Source of the DNA: Hexactinellida sp. DTS-2022
Taxonomy: Eukaryota > Porifera > Hexactinellida
DNA: 64,000 bases
Assembly (NCBI GenBank): GCA_028753945.1
Contig: JAPNXP010000001.1
Location: 3,028,501 to 3,092,500, forward strand
Direction: 5' to 3'
The notes beneath the pieces are model-generated. The model was given only the letters and a program-made list of their open reading frames with translations. It did no database searches and was not told where the DNA came from. The translations under genes and the position numbers were made by a program. Of the stretch, positions 7,946 through 62,010 are shown piece after piece; positions within the stretch are counted from its first letter, which is position 1; the number at the start of each line of letters is the position of its first letter.

Positions 7946-8611
7946 CAATGTTCTTTTAATATATAGATAGATGGATATATCTCACCTTGCTAGTAAACTC
8001 TTTACCTTGATCATGCTAGCATATTTTCGGGACTCCAAATGTGAGATAGATACCTAGTAGCTCAGCAATAATTTGTTCTCAAGTTATGATTATTTAGCCT
8101 AAAATTTTCTACACACTACAATTTTTTCAGAATGTATTTTTTTCGAAAGACAGTTTTATGATGAAATTTATACCCACAAAGGCTAAAGACGATAATGTTG
8201 TTCCATTGAAAGTCGAGATTTTTACGAGATAATCTTTTATAGAATTTAGTACCAAACCCATTTGACATATTTTGTTTAGTATGCCCAAATTCTCCACATT
8301 TCGGAGACTTTAAATAAATGGACCACTCTTTTTTGGTGATCAAACGAATACACCCTTTGAATTATTAACAAGTAAGTCTATATCGCGAGGATTTCTCTAT
8401 ACCCTATAATCAGCTTGTTACAAGTTCAACTCTTTCTTCTGAAAACTCTATACGCATGTCCATCAACACAATCCCTGATGAGTTCTGCGCAATGAGTTAA
8501 GAGTTTGTGAAATATTGGGAGTTATGCTTGCCCTTGGAGGTCATATAGTATTGTTTAATGTGTTGATTTGCATAAGTTCTCTAAACATCTATGTTATTAA
8601 CCTGCCTGCCT

Positions 8612-8655
8612 GCAATTTTACAAGTTGCAACTGGAATTGCAACTTGTAAAATTGC
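8612..8655. repeat. Perfect 19-bp hairpin
   Basis: GCAATTTTACAAGTTGCAA at 8612-8630 is exactly reverse-complementary to TTGCAACTTGTAAAATTGC at 8637-8655, with a 6-base loop. It may be a folded transposon remnant. No terminator or RNA gene context supports another role. Confidence 0.8.
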
Positions 8656-8750
8656 GAAAAGGTTTTTATTAATTATTAATAGACTTTATCCCTAATTTCT
8701 AGGGTGATTAATTGGTTTACCCAAATTATGAATTTTTGATAATTGACAAT

Positions 8751-9129
8751 GCACTGTTGCGTCTGATTTTAACTCGCGTCTGATCTTAACTCGTTACTAA
8801 AGCAGTACCATGGATACTGTTATACCGTCTCATTTTCGTTCTTGATAACTTAAAGTACTTTAACTTTCATTAATATATTCTGACCAACAAATCCTTCGCT
8901 TTTTGGGTAATGAGTATTTTGCAAACAATGATTTCAAGCAAATTATGAAATCATAGTTCATTATTTGCCATTTGTGCATACATTATAATTCAATGAGTAC
9001 CACTATTCACCTTGGGACAGTTAATGTTATCAATAACTAGTTAAAATCAGTTGGTATAACAGTATCCATGGTATAGCTATAGCAACGAGTAAATATCAGA
9101 CGCGAGTTAAATCAGACGCAACAGCACTG
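8751..9129. mobile_element. Inverted-repeat element of unresolved family
   Basis: The left end GCACTGTTGCGTCTGATTTT plus a following ACTCGCGTCTGAT is mirrored on the right by TCAGACGCGAGTTAAAT and CAGACGCAACAGCACTGC. A second mirrored block carries TACCATGGATACTGTTATACC. The element is about 380 bp and ends roughly 275 bp upstream of the first ESRP exon. No clean target duplication was found. Confidence 0.65.
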
Positions 9130-9403
9130 CCTTGCAACATTTCCTTTTGACGTTGTGCCTCCATCTTTACTCGGTAAAGATGGGTCTGACGCCAGTTTTT
9201 GCTTCTAAAACTGTGCGGGTTAATTGACTCCTCTGAAAGGGAAAATATGGTTACTCTGCATATATAATCCCTTCTCTTTAATACTAAAAATTTATAACCG
9301 CTTATAAGCCTTGGATAGCCACATTGGTTACAATTATATACAATTTGTTGATAATATTTAATGTTAAATAATATTTTACATTTATCATATTTATATTTTT
9401 TAG

Positions 9404-9706
9404 CTATATTGAAATTCTGCACTCTAATGTTGGGATCTTTAAAATTATCGCGGAAAGATTTTCTTCTGATAAACCAAAATATACATTTGAATCTGTTGCT
9501 AGATTGAGAGGATTGCCCTTTAGATGTACGGAGGAGTCGATTTCAGAATTTATTCGTCAAAAATCTCAAGTTTTTGGAGAATCTAAAGGAATTCTTATTA
9601 TTGAAAATGAAAAATCCCTCCCATCTGGTGACGCCTTTGTTCTATTTCAATTCGAAAATGACATTGAAAAAGCGTTACAACTGGATCGAACTTATCTTGA
9701 TGAAAG
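9404..9706 (+). CDS. ESRP: ESRP-family splicing regulator, internal exon A (second qRRM)
   Basis: ESRP proteins are nuclear RNA-binding regulators of epithelial alternative splicing that bind G/U-rich motifs through quasi-RRMs. The exon follows a T-rich tract ending in TAG (9401-9403) and ends AAAG|GTAT. It begins with the last base of a split codon, then YIEILHSN, the tail of the preceding qRRM. The linker GIFKIIAERFSS corresponds to the human DFLKIAGG linker. It then encodes a complete qRRM body: LRGLPF (RNP2-like), KGILII, and SGDAFVLFQFE (RNP1-like), ending LDE plus two bases of the next codon. The exon is 303 nt, phase 2 in and phase 2 out. KGIL...GDAFVLF is closest to ESRP qRRM2, not hnRNP H/F. 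The first qRRM and N-terminal domain are not visible, so the gene is 5'-incomplete here. Confidence 0.85.
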
Positions 9707-9906
9707 GTATTTTTAGTCTATTTATATTCCTTAAGTAATATCTTATATAGACCATAGTTTTTTGTAGACTAAATTCGGCAATAATAAATTTCAGTTTTCT
9801 TTATTAAAATTACCTTTATAATTAAATCCTTCCTCTTTACTTAAACTGAATTCTGTGCTCTGGAAATTTATTATTTTTATTAATATATTGTTTGCTTTTA
9901 TTCTAG

Positions 9907-21403: not shown

Positions 21404-21568
21404 TTGTAAGTAAAGAATTGAAAAACGAAAGTTGAAGAATTCAATTCTTAATTCATGTATTTTAATATTTTAATATCTTTATTTATGTTCTTATTAATCT
21501 ATTTATCCTTTTTAATTCTGAATTTAAGCGCGGCCAGTCTTACACCAACCCTTCCAAACCTCAATATA

Positions 21569-22132
21569 CACTAACCGGCCAAAAGTATTTGAACAGCAAT
21601 AATTTGTATTCAGACATTTGAGGTTATACCAGCATAATAACATTAGTAGATTCTACAAAATGGTTATTTACATGAAACAATATGTAAAGTATAATAAAAC
21701 AGCAAAATTTTCGAATTTACATTTTTATGGAGGCGTTAAACACATTAAATATATGATTAACTAATTAAATAATTTATTTGTGATCATTAAGATGCATTGA
21801 TATTATATTAATTCTGATAGCTGATTTGAATTCCACATAGTTAAATTAGTCTAAGTACATAATTTCAAATCAATCCGAATATTATCTACTGTGATGCAGC
21901 CACATTTCCATTTGTGCCACTTATGCCACAAGTGGCACGTGGCAGAAACACTTATGCCACTTCGTGAATATTTTCTAAATTTAATTGAAATCACAATATT
22001 TTCAAATGTATATCTATAATAAGATATTTATAGTCATTTCATAGTAGTTTAGATAGCCGTTATTAAGTTACCGGATGAGTATTGTGTGTGCATTAAAATC
22101 CCTATTGTTCAAATACTTTTGGCTGGCTAGTG
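21569..22132. mobile_element. Tc1/mariner-type MITE, TA-flanked
   Basis: The left end is CACTAACCGGCCAAAAGTAT. The right end, inward, is CACTAGCCAGCCAAAAGTAT, with TA on both sides. An internal GCCACTTATGCCACAAGTGG block is shared with the copy starting at 34277. There is no transposase frame. Confidence 0.85.
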
Positions 22133-22921: not shown

Positions 22922-23356
22922 TGCTCTATAATTATTACATATATTCGAATATTGTCAAGTCTAGCTATTATGAACAAAGTTTTTGATCCTTTGAGTGTTC
23001 TTACTGAAACAGCCTAACTGTTTATAATTGGAACTTATTTTTAATATTCACGATGTTTTATTATCGAATAGTAATTTCGAAATGTCGTTGATAGTTGATT
23101 AAAATCCTGTGTATAGAAATGTAGGGATTCGGTTAAATGCATACTACACTGTTGTATTTTTAGACATACATTCAAATTTATATGCAATCAATTTATGCTG
23201 TAACTCGGGCCTGATGACTTTGTTCTTTTTTGAAATTTTATCGATTAATATCTATTCGTTGATTTATTATCTCAGATCCAATTCTTCATTTTGTCACAAC
23301 TATATTTACTCTTCCTGAACTTTAACTTCTTACTTTTGAATTAATAATGTTTGTAG

Positions 23357-23746
23357 ATATATTGAGATATTTAAATCGAACATTGGTGAACTACTCCAGA
23401 TTGCTTGTCGGCAACATATTCCTTCATCATTTGCTCGTTTTATTGGGTTTTCACCTATGGATTGTTTTCGTAAAAACGATAAACCACTAATATACAAGGA
23501 TAATATCCACGATAATCCTTGTTTTCGAGATGATTGTGTACGTCTTAGGGGTCTTCCCTTTTCAGCTACTGTTGATGATATCTTAGAATTCTTTTGCCGA
23601 TTTTCTGATGAAATCTTACAAAGAGGAATTCACTTTGTATTTAATCAGAGTGGACAGCCTACTGGGGAATGTTATGTACAGATGTCCTCTTATAATTCTG
23701 CCCAATGTGCTGCAAAATATCTCCATAAAAGATATCTCGAAAACAG
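23357..23746 (+). CDS. ESRP: ESRP-family splicing regulator, internal exon B (third qRRM)
   Basis: The acceptor ATGTTTGTAG precedes 23357 and the donor AACAG|GTGTTG follows 23746. The exon is 390 nt, phase 2 in and out. It starts YIEIFKSNIGELLQIACRQH, finishing the qRRM begun in exon A, and continues with a roughly 45-residue linker. It then encodes a full qRRM: DDCVRLRGLPFSATVDDILE, GIHFVFNQSGQPTGE, and CYVQM, ending YLEN plus two bases. Human ESRP qRRM3 has the same pattern ([20 protein letters not shown], G-V-H-x-V-x-N-x-x-G, QM), which makes ESRP more likely than hnRNP H/F or GRSF1. The RNP1-like segment is GECYVQM where most paralogues have GDAFVQF. The codon split with exon C restores Arg. 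Confidence 0.87.
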
Positions 23747-24728
23747 GTGTTGCAAATATTTATTATTGTACTAATAGCCATTGTAAATATACTGTGTTTT
23801 ATTTTGGTATTTTCTTACGCTGACGCATTTCCTGACCAAAATGCTAGGAATTTTTTTTATTAACAAGGGATTATTTAATATAATATGTGCATAATACCTG
23901 TACTGCTTCACATGTTATATTAAGTATTAACTAATATATGATTTGATTTAATTTGACTTGGGTGAATATAAATATTAATTTGCAGCCCCTTCAAAATGAT
24001 CCCTTAGTATAACAAACTAAAAATTCATTGAGTTAAAGTAAACGAATCTACCACTCGATCACCATAATTTTAATCATTTGGTCTTGTGTTATCTTCAAAT
24101 TATAACACATGAGATATCTACCCTAAATTTCATCAAACTGTAATATTTCTCTGTACTATTGAAAAGATACGCACTATAAATAATAATTAACTTAGGCGAT
24201 GAATCGACACTTGTTTCACAATTCTCAATACAAACAGTAGCCGCCAATTATAAACGGCTAATAAGTGGAATCTAAAATACAAACACATCATCATTATGAG
24301 AGAAATGTCTAATTGCTAAGGAATATGCTACATAATGTTGAATGACTATCTTAGAAGCATAATAACTGCGCAATTTGGCAATCGAATTCTGTAAAATTTG
24401 GTATTTCCTCATGGATTTTGTAGCTACAAAAATTTCATTATATATTTAAAGTATCAATTAACCAGAGCATCAATCTATGCACTCATAATGGATTTTGATA
24501 TACCAGTCAATTAGTATAGGGTTCCTAAGAGCGATTTACTTGTATTAATTACTAAATTAAATCCACTCTATTTACATAGAAGTTACATATTTCCCAGCAA
24601 CACGCTATTTAATTTATTTTCCCCCATGTATGATCAATTAAAATTAGAGGATAATTAAAGATTGTTAGCATACCTAAAATTGGAATCATTATCTCATCCG
24701 AAAATGCACTTAATACATTGCATTAGAC

Positions 24729-26010: not shown

Positions 26011-26432
26011 ACAAAAATACAAATTTTTTATGATGCCAATCATTCAGTTTGGAGCTGTCAATGATACTTCATAAGTGGGTATCGACTATCAAAATTCAAC
26101 AACCATTATCAGCTTCAGCGCAGCAGTCGCTAAACTATGAGCTTGTTAACTGAAGTTGAACCATGACGTTGTTAAGAATGGTTATTCAATTACAATTTCA
26201 AAGCCAATATTACAATTTTCAAATCCATTGCCTGATGGATTTTTGAATACTTGCATTTAAGAATAGTGGTGATTCGTGTATAAATGATGAAAAATGGTCA
26301 GTTCTACCCAAACACGGCGTAAAGTGTCGAGGAAATGAGTAGGACAATATAATTAACAGTTTAAAGTGGTGAAATTTTCACGCTTGAAATCGATGTGCAT
26401 CTTCATTTTCACACTTGAGAATGACAAATGAT

Positions 26433-27592
26433 TTTCAGACCCATTAAGATTGACCAGTTTAGAAGGCTTCCTGATTGTACAAGAGACAGCTGAGAGAATC
26501 CTAATGGAGACATTTATTAATCCCGAAACCAAACTAATTGAACAAGATGGTATTGATCTCCCGCAAGGGCTTGTGAAAATAAAAGTATACCGTAGTATGT
26601 TTGATGGGAAAATGTCGGGTATCCTAACCGGTGTTGGCGGTGCAAAATGCCAATTATGCACAGCTACACGACTTTGATCTAGTAAGATCTGGATTCCCAA
26701 TTAATAGAACTATATCAGCTGCAAGAGATATTTTTTCTTCCGTTGAGAAGACTGAGTGTTTATCACCCCATCTCAAGAACGATTTGGCTTAACTCATGAA
26801 CCATTATCCGAAATTGAGACAATACCTGCTTCTCCTCTCCATTCATACACATGTTTATTTCGATGGTTAATGACACTTGTATACCATTTACATTATGGAT
26901 CCAATAAATGGTCACCAACATCTGCTAAAGTAAAAAATCATTGAAATTTGTTCGTGATTTCTTACAAGAAAAAAACAGGCCTAAAAATTGACCAACCTTC
27001 TAGTGATGGAGGTACAACATCCACCGGTAACTTAGCTCGTGAATGTTTTAGCAATAAAAATAACTTCATACATTGGATTACAACCTTAGTTCCAGCGGAT
27101 TTCCATGATTCTCTCACGAAAATTCTCAACAATCTCACAGCTGTCCTGCGCTCTTTCAGTATAGTAGGAGATAAATACCGATACCCAAGGTCTTCTATGT
27201 CGAGAAACATACGAATTCATCTTAGTAAAATTCCCATGGGTGAATATAACCCCATCCCTCCACAAGTTGTTAGCTCATAGCACGGAGTTAATTAGGGATT
27301 GTAACAACGGGTTCGGGATGAAAGAATTTTCTGAAGAAGCAGTTGAATCATGTAACAAGATGATTCGCAAATACCGTGAACATCTCTCTCGAAAAAATTC
27401 ATTCGGTTTAAACACGATAGATATCTTTGTGCGTATTTTATCTCAAAGCGACCAGTTTTGACTTCATTTACACATCACGTAGTTTGCAAGAAATGTGGAG
27501 AACCGAGCCACATTTGCAAACTACATTGCAATACTTCTTTTCTCCAATCGGAGCAAGATAATCTATTAAAAGCATTGTTTATATAAGTTATA
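26433..27592 (+). pseudogene. RAG1/Transib-like DDE transposase relic
   Basis: Five + strand segments in shifting frames follow the order of the RAG1 catalytic core. At 26450-26677, GAKCQLCTATR aligns with the zinc-binding CTLCDATR of vertebrate RAG1. At about 26760-26940, LTHEPLSEIETIPASPLHSY corresponds to the region after it. At 26948-27240, DQPSSDGGTTSTGNLARECF corresponds to the RAG1 MNGNFARKL block, followed by LVPADFHDSLTKILNNLTAV. At 27246-27461, LHKLLAHSTELIRD and FSEEAVESCNKMIRKYREH match HKTLAHVPEIIE and ASEGNESGNKLFRRFRK. The Glu of S-E-E or E-S aligns with the third catalytic acid. After one more frameshift CKKCGEPSHICKLHC resembles the zinc-binding tail of RAG1-like and Transib proteins. 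It has at least four frameshifts and no intact ends. It lies inside ESRP intron B-C. No RAG2-like Kelch sequence is seen. Confidence 0.75.
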
Positions 27593-27803
27593 TTTTGTTA
27601 TGCCAGCTTTTCTAAGTACTATTCAGTTCAGTAGACAATGATTATTGGAAAAAATATTTTGCCATAATTTTGGTTGTAGAAGCTGTAGTAAAACTGACCA
27701 TACCAGCCGATTCCTAATAGTCGGTGACCCATATGCAATTAATACATTTTAAGTGTGTAGGAAGCATGCAAACTCCTATATCCCCTCAGGTGGCTGTTTC
27801 CCC

Positions 27804-27810
27804 CACTGTG
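27804..27810. other. CACTGTG heptamer downstream of the RAG1-like relic
   Basis: CACTGTG, the inverse of the RSS heptamer CACAGTG, lies about 210 bp after the end of the relic. It is in the orientation expected for a right element end and is followed by GAGGG. A matching left end was not found, so it may be coincidence. Confidence 0.2.
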
Positions 27811-35420: not shown

Positions 35421-35765
35421 CGTTAGTGCATATCTATATAACTTTTCAAGTTGTGGCCAATTCGACATTACTAATTACTATTGATTTGTAAATCAGGCCA
35501 TTTGAGGTGAATAATAGGAATAGTTTAAGAAATCAAGTTTATTCAACAGTTATGCTTGTAATATTTGAACACCTCTCTTTACAACTTTACGCCCACACCA
35601 GCATAGCTAGCATAGTTTATATCTTATAATATATTGAAGTTCATTTATTCTTTAAAATATTATTTTATAATTTCGCTCTTCTTCCTAGTACGTTAATTAT
35701 TCACAAATATGCGTTTTAGTGCGGGGCATTAAGACGGACCTTTGTTATTGTTCATTTTCATATAG
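35421..35765. other. End of ESRP intron B-C
   Basis: This short stretch between the hAT MITE and the acceptor of exon C is A+T-rich and unremarkable. Confidence 0.4.
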
Positions 35766-36159
35766 ATATATAGAAGTTTATGTTAGTTCTCACTTCAAAT
35801 TACAGAGGAGATCTCCTATCATGGGGAGTTTTGATGATTCTTATTCTGAAATTCTTATAAATAGCAAAGGAAAGAAAAGACGAAATTACTCACCAAACTT
35901 TGTAACCAGACGAGAAGACAGAAGATTCAGGATTAAACTTCGTGGACTTCCATATGCCTCCTGTAAACGAGAGATTGCGTTATTTTTCTACGATTACGGA
36001 ATTGAAGAACAAGATGTTGTGTTTCTGGATGTAGGCTACCGTCGCACAGGCGAAGCATTCGTTTACTTCCCTTCAGGGGAAAAAGCAAGGCGTGCTGTTA
36101 GGGAAAAACATAATAAATATATTGGAGATAGGTATATAGAACTATTTGAGGATTTTTGA
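35766..36159 (+). CDS. ESRP: ESRP-family splicing regulator, terminal exon C (last qRRM)
   Basis: The acceptor TTTTCATATAG precedes 35766. The exon opens YIEVYVSSHFKLQRRSP, finishing the exon B qRRM, then a basic linker (GKKRRNY, RREDRRF). It then encodes a final qRRM: RIKLRGLPYASCKREIALFF, then DVVFLDVG, then GEAFVYFPSG, and RYIELFEDF followed by TGA at 36157-36159. The protein ends immediately after the fold. Vertebrate ESRPs instead carry a long proline-rich tail and a degenerate last motif, so this arrangement is compact. In the other two qRRMs an intron splits the R-Y-I-E codon; here the site is uninterrupted. No AATAAA was seen in the next 130 bases; a T-rich tract with TTTATTAATTG lies near 36240. 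Confidence 0.85.
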
Positions 36160-43744: not shown

Positions 43745-44764
43745 TGTTGTTTAACTACCATGACAGTTTAACTACCTTGTATTAGTATAACCATGGATAT
43801 TCCAGCCATGACAGTTTAACTACCAATAACAATTCTACAACTTCTTTGTATGACTTCCTCAACTTGTAGTTCCTATTGCATGATGACGCATTTTTTCCCA
43901 CATAACGTATACAATCTAATAGGCTGTTATGATTGTGTTACTTAGATTATATTTCGTTGTTTTTCAATTCAGCCGTCAATTATTTCTGACTAATATTATT
44001 TATTGATATTTAATTTCCCTACAAACTCCTCCCATGATTAGCCATGGAACCATTAGAATATTTCAAATTAACAACTTTCCCAAAATCCGAGTTGTTCCCA
44101 ATGAGCTGACCATTAAGTCTGCTAGGTTATACCACTCCCGCTATATATTTGGTTAACCGATCTAATCACTACCAACCTGTCATCGATTTAAATAATTGCT
44201 GCTATTCTTCATTCTTTGATTCGTATAGTTTTAGCGATGCAATTATCATTGAATAAAAGTTCATTAGTATTATGTGCTTAAAATAATATACTGTACTATG
44301 AATACAAATTTATTGTTGTTCAAATACTTATGGACAGGTAGTGTATTTTAAAAGATATTAAACCAAGGGTCCATAATGGGTTAGTAAATGGGCTTATTGC
44401 CCATTTAGTTTAATACAAACAAGCTAAAAAAAACTGGGAGTCAATTGATGATGTAATAAATCAAAGAAATTCCTTATTTCCCCAATTTTTTTCTAATGGT
44501 AGACACATGGAACATTAAATCGATGTAATGTAATTCAGTTAATAAAGAAAAGATATAAAATTATTACCTCTATATACCATTTCTCAGCGATTTATAGTAA
44601 GTATGATGAGGTATTAGCTTTGATTGAAAGGATGCGTAATCATGCAATATGAACTACAAGTCGAGGAAGACAAAGAATTTGTACAATTGTTATTGGTAGT
44701 TAAACTGTCATGGCTGGAATATACATGGTATACTAATACAAGGTAGTTAAACTGTCATGCAACA
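43745..44764. mobile_element. Element inserted in a TIR, 4-bp duplication GTTC
   Basis: TGTTGTTTAACTACCATGAC and, inward from the right, TGTTGCATGACAGTTTAACT bracket the insert, with GTTC at 43741-43744 and 44765-44768. The uninterrupted right TIR of the host reads GTTTGTTCAAAACC, confirming the insertion point. A longer internal inverted block (AACCATGGATATTCCAGCCA and its inverse) is present near both ends. It has no coding capacity. Confidence 0.85.
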
Positions 44765-61004: not shown

Positions 61005-62010
61005 TATTATCAAGTCATTAAAAAAATCCTTTTATATATCCCAAGTTCGATGAATGTACAATTGATTTATATAAATCCGTAAATCCATCTTGTACTCAGT
61101 ACATAATGTATACACCTACAGCCAACATTATTATTAAAGCCACCAGTGGCGTAACGAAGGAGCCTGGGTCCCCTCGCCAATCTAAAGGATCGGAGCCCAC
61201 AGTGGTTTATTGACAGGGAGTTGGACAATTTTTTACCTATTCTGATCTCTTCAAAAACGTTTTTATCGTGTTCAGCATAATCGAGAACCTAGGTAACTGT
61301 TTTTACAGTTAAAAATTCCGAGTAGAATTAGAAATATGATGCAGTGTCTATAGTTTCAATGACTAAATAAAATTAAGAAATTTTGTGGTTAACTATTATG
61401 AATCATTTCATGCTCGTGTATCTCATTAGGTTTCGATCACAATCAGCTAATACTTTCACAGTGTTTAATTATAGTTCATATCATCCTAAAAATGTTGAAT
61501 ACTCTTCATAGAATTATTTGTCCTTTAGTATAATTATCATTGCAAATTATGATTAGCTGGAAGTGTCCGAACTGCTAAATTCCATGTATTGGTATTGCGT
61601 AAACTTGTAGTGTCGTGTCGTGTCGTTTTACTAGCCCTATTTTTATATAAAGTTTAAGTATATAGCTTGAGTATATAGCTTGAATTTTAACCACTTTCCA
61701 GCCCCGCGCAACTGCGCGCAAAATAAAATCTACTTGTCTATATACGGGGGCTTTGAAGATTTATATACGAAGATTTTAATTTTTTTTCAAAATTTCATCA
61801 ATTAGTAAACTAAATGAATAATTTAGAAGCGTGTGATTACCTTTCAACCAAGGAAACTATACGGGTTGCTGTAAATGTAATATAAATGCAAGGGTGATCA
61901 AATGCCAAAATTGGAACAAGAAAAACTGGTCGAACCATTGATGTTAAAAAGCTGGTTATTTGACTGGCCTAGCTCTCGAATTACATTATCAACTTAATTT
62001 ATATCTACAC
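61005..62010. other. No gene; isolated hAT-like end at 61146
   Basis: CAGTGGCGTAACGAAGGAGC near 61146 and CAGTGG about 70 bases later look like a small hAT remnant. The rest is non-coding. Confidence 0.4.

Follow-up and report, generated by a model that had tools for sequence, protein, structure and literature searches.

Vertebrate RAG1 is descended from transposons related to Transib. Among the closest described systems, Subgroup I Transibs, according to Tao et al. 2022 (PMC9435367), carry a zinc-domain segment, a RAG1L-like tail and asymmetric ends, and the spacers of AanRAGL measure 4 and 13 bp; ProtoRAG spacers are given as 27/31 bp, and the ends of HzTransib described as symmetric, in passages of PMC8289069. 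The main text of Tao et al. 2022 reports hundreds of Transibs in other metazoans, possibly including sponges, and a passage of Kapitonov and Koonin 2015 (PMC4411706) puts autonomous Transibs in animal genomes at one or at most few copies. Here we describe a related relic in the glass sponge Hexactinellida sp. DTS-2022, in a window of 64,000 nucleotides (assembly GCA_028753945.1, contig JAPNXP010000001.1, positions 3,028,501 to 3,092,500), whose own numbering is used below. We read the relic, with a probability of about 0.94, as what decay has left of the 3' part of a cut-and-paste DNA transposon of the Transib superfamily, seated in a presumed intron of a gene for a splicing factor.

Identity, extent and decay of the relic

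The initial annotation of the window had picked out four RAG1-like blocks, and frame translations recover all of them on the plus strand, in the right place and the right order: KCQLCTATR in the frame at 26432-26677, GGTTSTGNLAREC in the frame at 26945-27280, and HKLLAHSTELI and EEAVESCNKMIRKYREH in the frame at 27168-27461. Its view that they are the fossil of a RAG1-core-type (Transib superfamily) transposase is borne out by matches of the last of these frames, 97 aa long, which hits the solved HzTransib transposase at 3e-7; its match to BbRAG1L stands at 0.03, and none to RAG1 is better than 0.13. The same frame also matches the Pfam RAG1 profile (E=7.8e-4), but at 18.1 bits it scores below the curated cut-off of 25 bits. 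Counted from the frames, the second catalytic Asp codon lies at 26603..26605 (SMFDGKM; column D373), the CQLC of the zinc domain (ZnC2-type cysteines) at 26648..26659 (C388, C391), its HKLLAH (ZnH2-type histidines) at 27261..27278 (H598, H603) and the catalytic Glu codon at 27345..27347 (SEEAVESCNK; E626), all on the plus strand and all in columns that are invariant in our transposase alignment, A1. The relic of a C-terminal CCHC zinc knuckle (CKKCGEPSHICKLHC; 27485..27529, plus strand, in the frame 27380-27586) aligns with the knuckle of P0008, a full-length relative that served as reference for frame comparison. Of the three acidic residues expected of such a transposase, two survive, the second Asp and the Glu, while the first Asp went with the 5' part that the element has lost by truncation. 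No further copy of that missing part was found in the window by blastn with complete cousins, barring short stretches similar to element ends.

DNA comparison with loci of the same genome corrects the ends of the span first proposed for the relic (26433..27592), the location of which was right: in the farthest-reaching copies homology sets in at 26483-26499 and stops at 27810. The whole remnant of the 3' transposon part thus runs from 26483-27810 on the plus strand, and within it a 5'-truncated, frame-broken remnant of approximately the C-terminal half of the transposase occupies 26483..27586 (plus strand; frames, and tblastn with P0008 in frames +2/+3). On the minus strand, the common end at 27810 reads CACAGTGGGG, also given as CACAGTGGGGGAAAC, and the 3' terminal inverted repeat (27775..27810) consists of CACAGTGG at the end and a second element, GGGATATAGG. 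The transposase gene is broken, since the zinc knuckle is out of frame with the block that holds the catalytic Glu; tblastn with P0008 places one frame switch at 27160-27168 and another close to 27452, in addition to stops. With its 5' end and first Asp gone and its frames broken, the window copy would no longer be mobile, and taken alone it is an ordinary dead Transib copy.

As for its surroundings, the relic had been assigned to an intron of an ESRP gene. It does lie between quasi-RRM (RNA recognition motif) exons of an ESRP/hnRNP-H-like gene and, because these exons flank it, is presumably intronic, in sense orientation relative to the presumed host gene; ESRP itself is a plausible but unproven identity, drawn from matches of the frames. 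The quasi-RRM frame upstream of the relic (23340..23771, plus strand) matches hnRNP H at 1.7e-20, ESRP1 at 5.4e-19 and Pfam RRM_1 at 2.1e-5, and further RRM frames lie at 9372..9713 (plus strand; Pfam RRM_1 7.3e-7) and, downstream of the relic, at 35689..36156 (plus strand; Pfam RRM_1 1.9e-7).

Intact cousins, their ends and their transposases

The idea of an isolated relic did not hold. In the assembly searched (112.4 Mb, 18 contigs), the 97-aa frame has at least 150 matches (150 of 404 first-look candidates scored), and the genome-wide search for intact copies that the initial annotation had proposed turned up long open frames: 18 of the 150 matches listed, counted from the table, hold one of at least 600 aa without an internal stop. 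At the DNA level, the relic region matches eight loci at 82-92% (the closest at 90-92%) and one more at 73%, the matches extending over as much as 1.36 kb. Around those eight loci, the relic's own subfamily (L039-L045 and L047), the longest frame of any kind has 346 codons, and the subfamily itself looks dead on that evidence.

Related elements are 2.9-3.8 kb long and appear to have one gene, that of a transposase of approximately 700 aa. Five of them (L031, L032, L033, L034 and L036) are near-identical insertions of approximately 3.08 kb, the other four being 98.6-99.1% identical to L031; they have a common 18-bp terminal repeat and perfect 5-bp target duplications in 5/5 cases, and the genome contains 19 occurrences of the terminal 18-mer (reversed control, 0). 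Stop-to-stop frames reach 711 codons in L031 and 713 in L036, while the longest in L032, L033 and L034 span 324-444 codons. All 15 organism-named proteins among the 85 relatives of an intact cousin that were listed (7997 candidates scored) belong to the glass sponge Oopsacas minuta, which fits a hexactinellid genome, and a profile search that listed 49 proteins (7996 candidates scored) found no nearest non-sponge relative, the named ones again all being from O. minuta. Nothing in a scan of bacterial and archaeal genome contigs supports a microbial source (70 pattern matches to a 16-row profile, 0 confirmed), eukaryotic transfer being outside the reach of this test.

The ends of these elements were searched for by requiring CAC, GTG, 11/16 matching end bases and 4/5 matching flank bases, and among the 31 sequences covered, the window and 30 loci, 17 gave a CACAGTG-type end pair; L052, with AAATG flanks on both sides, was added later as a further pair. 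CACAGTG, the consensus V(D)J heptamer according to a passage of PMC8289069, stands at both termini in 10/10 family representatives, all chosen from loci with an end pair. These ten share a second block, in many cases GGAAATAG-like, which is set 9-10 bp deeper at the 3' end than at its 5' counterpart. Summed over the ten, the best 10-mer matches at shift 9 or 10 come to 91/100, a score that 0 of 5000 shuffles reached (mean 45.5, maximum 59). We caution that shifts 9 and 10 were picked after inspection of the ends; a full scan of shifts from -14 to +14 peaks at 9 (71), at 10 (64) and at 0 (68), the last being the shared outer repeat. Taken alone, L058 is weak (7/10 match, shuffle fraction 0.06). 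L055 and L056 have their own variant of the block, identical at both ends within the element, which suggests that the protein reads the block. The ten do not include L038 (swapped ends), L031-L034, L042 and L048 (near copies of representatives) and L052 (found later). L048, a copy with an indel, gives shift 14, and L042 gives equal matches at shifts -8 and 10; L038 (L038:1300-5077) has a CATTA duplication, and with respect to its transposase frame the 5'-type and 3'-type ends have changed places, as though the interior had been inverted. The 3' end of L060, a deep lineage, carries the same heptamer and a GGAAATAGG block. On this model, the transposase would bind both ends through the outer CACAGTG and the second element, the latter set about one helical turn deeper on the 3' side, would cut by nick and hairpin at a DDE (Asp-Asp-Glu) RNase H-like site, and would insert the element with a 5-bp target duplication, such duplications being observed directly in the cousins.

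In the transposases themselves, the DDE columns are invariant in the 20 rows of A1. The interval from CxxC to the later His is 66-70 residues in 17 sponge rows versus 31 in three HzTransib-type rows; the sponge zinc-domain segment thus has RAG1 length, and on our reading it is the published alpha11-alpha12 region, kept as in Subgroup I. L060 (G000:C2:3227000-3231500), 28% identical to L036, has the RAG1-length segment and no scorable tail. A C-terminal zinc knuckle was found in 24 of 39 scorable sponge tails and in 0 of 15 scored HzTransib-type rows; the other 15 of the 39 are off pattern, P0009 for instance having the cysteines but no His. Parsimony does not support the knuckle as a simple ancestral trait shared with RAG1L, because those 15 tails deviate, the sponge lineages that branch closest to the base have no knuckle or cannot be scored, and three state changes are needed within the sponge part of the tree. 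The comparison of the sponge knuckle with the RAG1L/CTT1 tail was one of motif description (CCGHC) and not of sequence; a passage of Martin et al. 2020 (PMC7204232) ties the CCGHC tail to invertebrate RAG1L.

The window holds further pieces of this kind. Tblastn pieces at 8384-9213, on the minus strand, mark a second Transib transposase relic, more decayed than the first, which lies upstream of the RRM frame at 9372..9713. At 61198-61952 (plus strand) a 5' end CACAGTGG, beginning at 61198, is followed by an N-terminus-like start MNNLEACDYLSTKETIRVA, as read from the DNA, and a piece of the transposase C-terminal tail lies inside the same element at 61884-61952; by this arrangement it is probably an internal-deletion derivative of Transib. 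Stretches at 21564-21722 and 44297-44345, 78-84% similar to part of locus L046, are perhaps short non-autonomous elements.

Placement and rival explanations

The initial annotation expected a place between Transib and the RAG1-like B-type families, which the data do not show; HzTransib is the best match of the cousins in both sequence and predicted fold. Profile scores are 162 bits for HzTransib, 70 for BbRAG1L and 62 for RAG1, and in a fold alignment (one model) the intact cousins are 25% identical to HzTransib and about 17-18% to BbRAG1L and RAG1. A passage of Martin et al. 2020 (PMC7204232) sets a bound of 22% on core identity between Transib and RAG1/RAG1L, and in the same alignment the sponge cousins fall under it. 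The intermediate idea nonetheless has some merit in the RAG1-length zinc segment, the frequent C-terminal knuckle and the asymmetric ends, which resemble those of recombination signal sequences (RSS). A tree of 66 rows (64 long enough of 70 aligned, plus BbRAG1L and mouse RAG1) unites 47 sponge-type rows in one group (100/98; 82/35 with L060), 16 HzTransib-type rows, nine of them insect-named (100/99), and, with 100/100, both RAG rows. Where the sponge group belongs, and whether its identity is Transib or RAG1L, the tree does not decide, because it has no outgroup and no Subgroup I reference and its branches are long. Oopsacas rows are interspersed among those from the assembly searched (P0041, for instance, sits with L059), which implies a radiation older than the lineage split, unless elements moved between the lineages.

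Several observations weigh against a Transib assignment of the relic: its Pfam RAG1 score is sub-cut-off and the remaining five of the six window frames scanned have no RAG1 match; the window copy keeps its 3' end only and so has no target duplication to read; and 14 of the 31 sequences gave no end pair or only a poor one. That the relic is instead a RAG1-like transposon (RAGL, RAG1L_B or ProtoRAG-type) which formerly had a RAG2-like gene, as its RAG1-type features could suggest, we consider very improbable and disfavour, because the profile scores (162 versus 70 and 62 bits) and the fold-alignment identities (25% to HzTransib versus about 17-18% to RAG1/BbRAG1L) point to HzTransib, and because no RAG2-like Kelch gene was found: the RAG2 (PF03089) and RAG2 PHD (PF13341) profiles have no match in the genome, a weak test since no positive control scored, and outside the transposase gene nine complete elements contain no frame above 88 aa, although spliced exons could escape such a search. 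Another DDE family of similar fold, such as P element or Hermes/hAT, has next to no likelihood; we reject these on the gap in fold Z, and the element ends speak against them as well.

The sense orientation of the relic inside its presumed host gene would suit an exapted coding piece, whether an exon or a domesticated transposase still used by that gene. We give this hardly any credence, because stops and frameshifts interrupt the frames, the copy lacks its first catalytic Asp, and eight further loci match at 82-92%, none of those checked having a long transposase frame. A decayed Transib insertion is the reading we retain.

Comparison with known systems

The kind of element is known, and it is the host and the scale that look new. 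Against the few autonomous copies described for animal genomes, this genome is an outlier, with its 18 long open frames among at least 150 matches and its near-identical insertions; its Transibs form a large set that moved recently and has RAG-like ends. Among the papers listed for Transib with glass sponge, Porifera, sponge RAG1 or Amphimedon, no title or abstract opening reports sponge Transibs; in the available main text of the Oopsacas and Aphrocallistes genome papers RAG1 goes unmentioned, as does Transib in that of Aphrocallistes (the Oopsacas paper was not searched for it). In UniRef, several proteins of Oopsacas already bear the label V(D)J recombination-activating protein. We offer as tentative, and on balance doubtful, the proposal that a radiation of RAG-proximal Transibs lives on in glass sponges at high copy number, its ends pairing a short with a long spacer behind an exact V(D)J heptamer. 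If, in addition, the transposase needed one end of each type, a 12/23-like spacer rule would have existed without RAG2, and sponges would be working models of the pre-RAG2 state. Sponges being an early-branching animal phylum, this host's many natural combinations of a transposase with its ends could be used to test when the RSS heptamer and paired spacers originated, and likewise the segment that docks RAG2 and the zinc tail at the C-terminus.

HzTransib shares with the sponge cousins the DDE core, the zinc residues and a GTT.GN.AR block, but the HzTransib-type rows scored have a short zinc interval and no C-terminal knuckle, and the symmetric ends described in that passage of PMC8289069 differ from the asymmetric sponge ends. 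ProtoRAG/BbRAG1L of amphioxus resembles them in fold (a match over 498 residues), in zinc-domain length and in having asymmetric ends (again per PMC8289069), and differs in its lower profile scores, in its 27/31-bp spacers and in its RAG2L, which was not found in the sponge by a weak search. AanRAGL, from a pelagophyte alga, has both RAG1L and RAG2L and different element sequences, but its two-part ends show a 9-bp asymmetry, compared with 9-10 bp in the sponge. The vertebrate RAG1 system, with its 12/23 RSS, has the same CACAGTG heptamer and a spacing difference of about one helical turn; it differs in its nonamer (ACAAAAACC, as against the GGAAATAG-like second element), in an identity of 16-18% in the fold alignment and in RAG2, for which the weak sponge search gave nothing. 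Subgroup I Transibs, among which we read the ctenophore and Hydra elements in a figure legend of PMC9435367, differ in that 15 of the 39 scorable sponge tails are off the knuckle pattern and in the glass sponge host and high copy number. They have, like the sponge elements, a retained zinc segment, a C-terminal zinc tail in many families and asymmetric two-part ends, and it is these published Subgroup I Transibs that the sponge traits match, a likeness of described traits drawn beside a tree of other Transib and RAG sequences.
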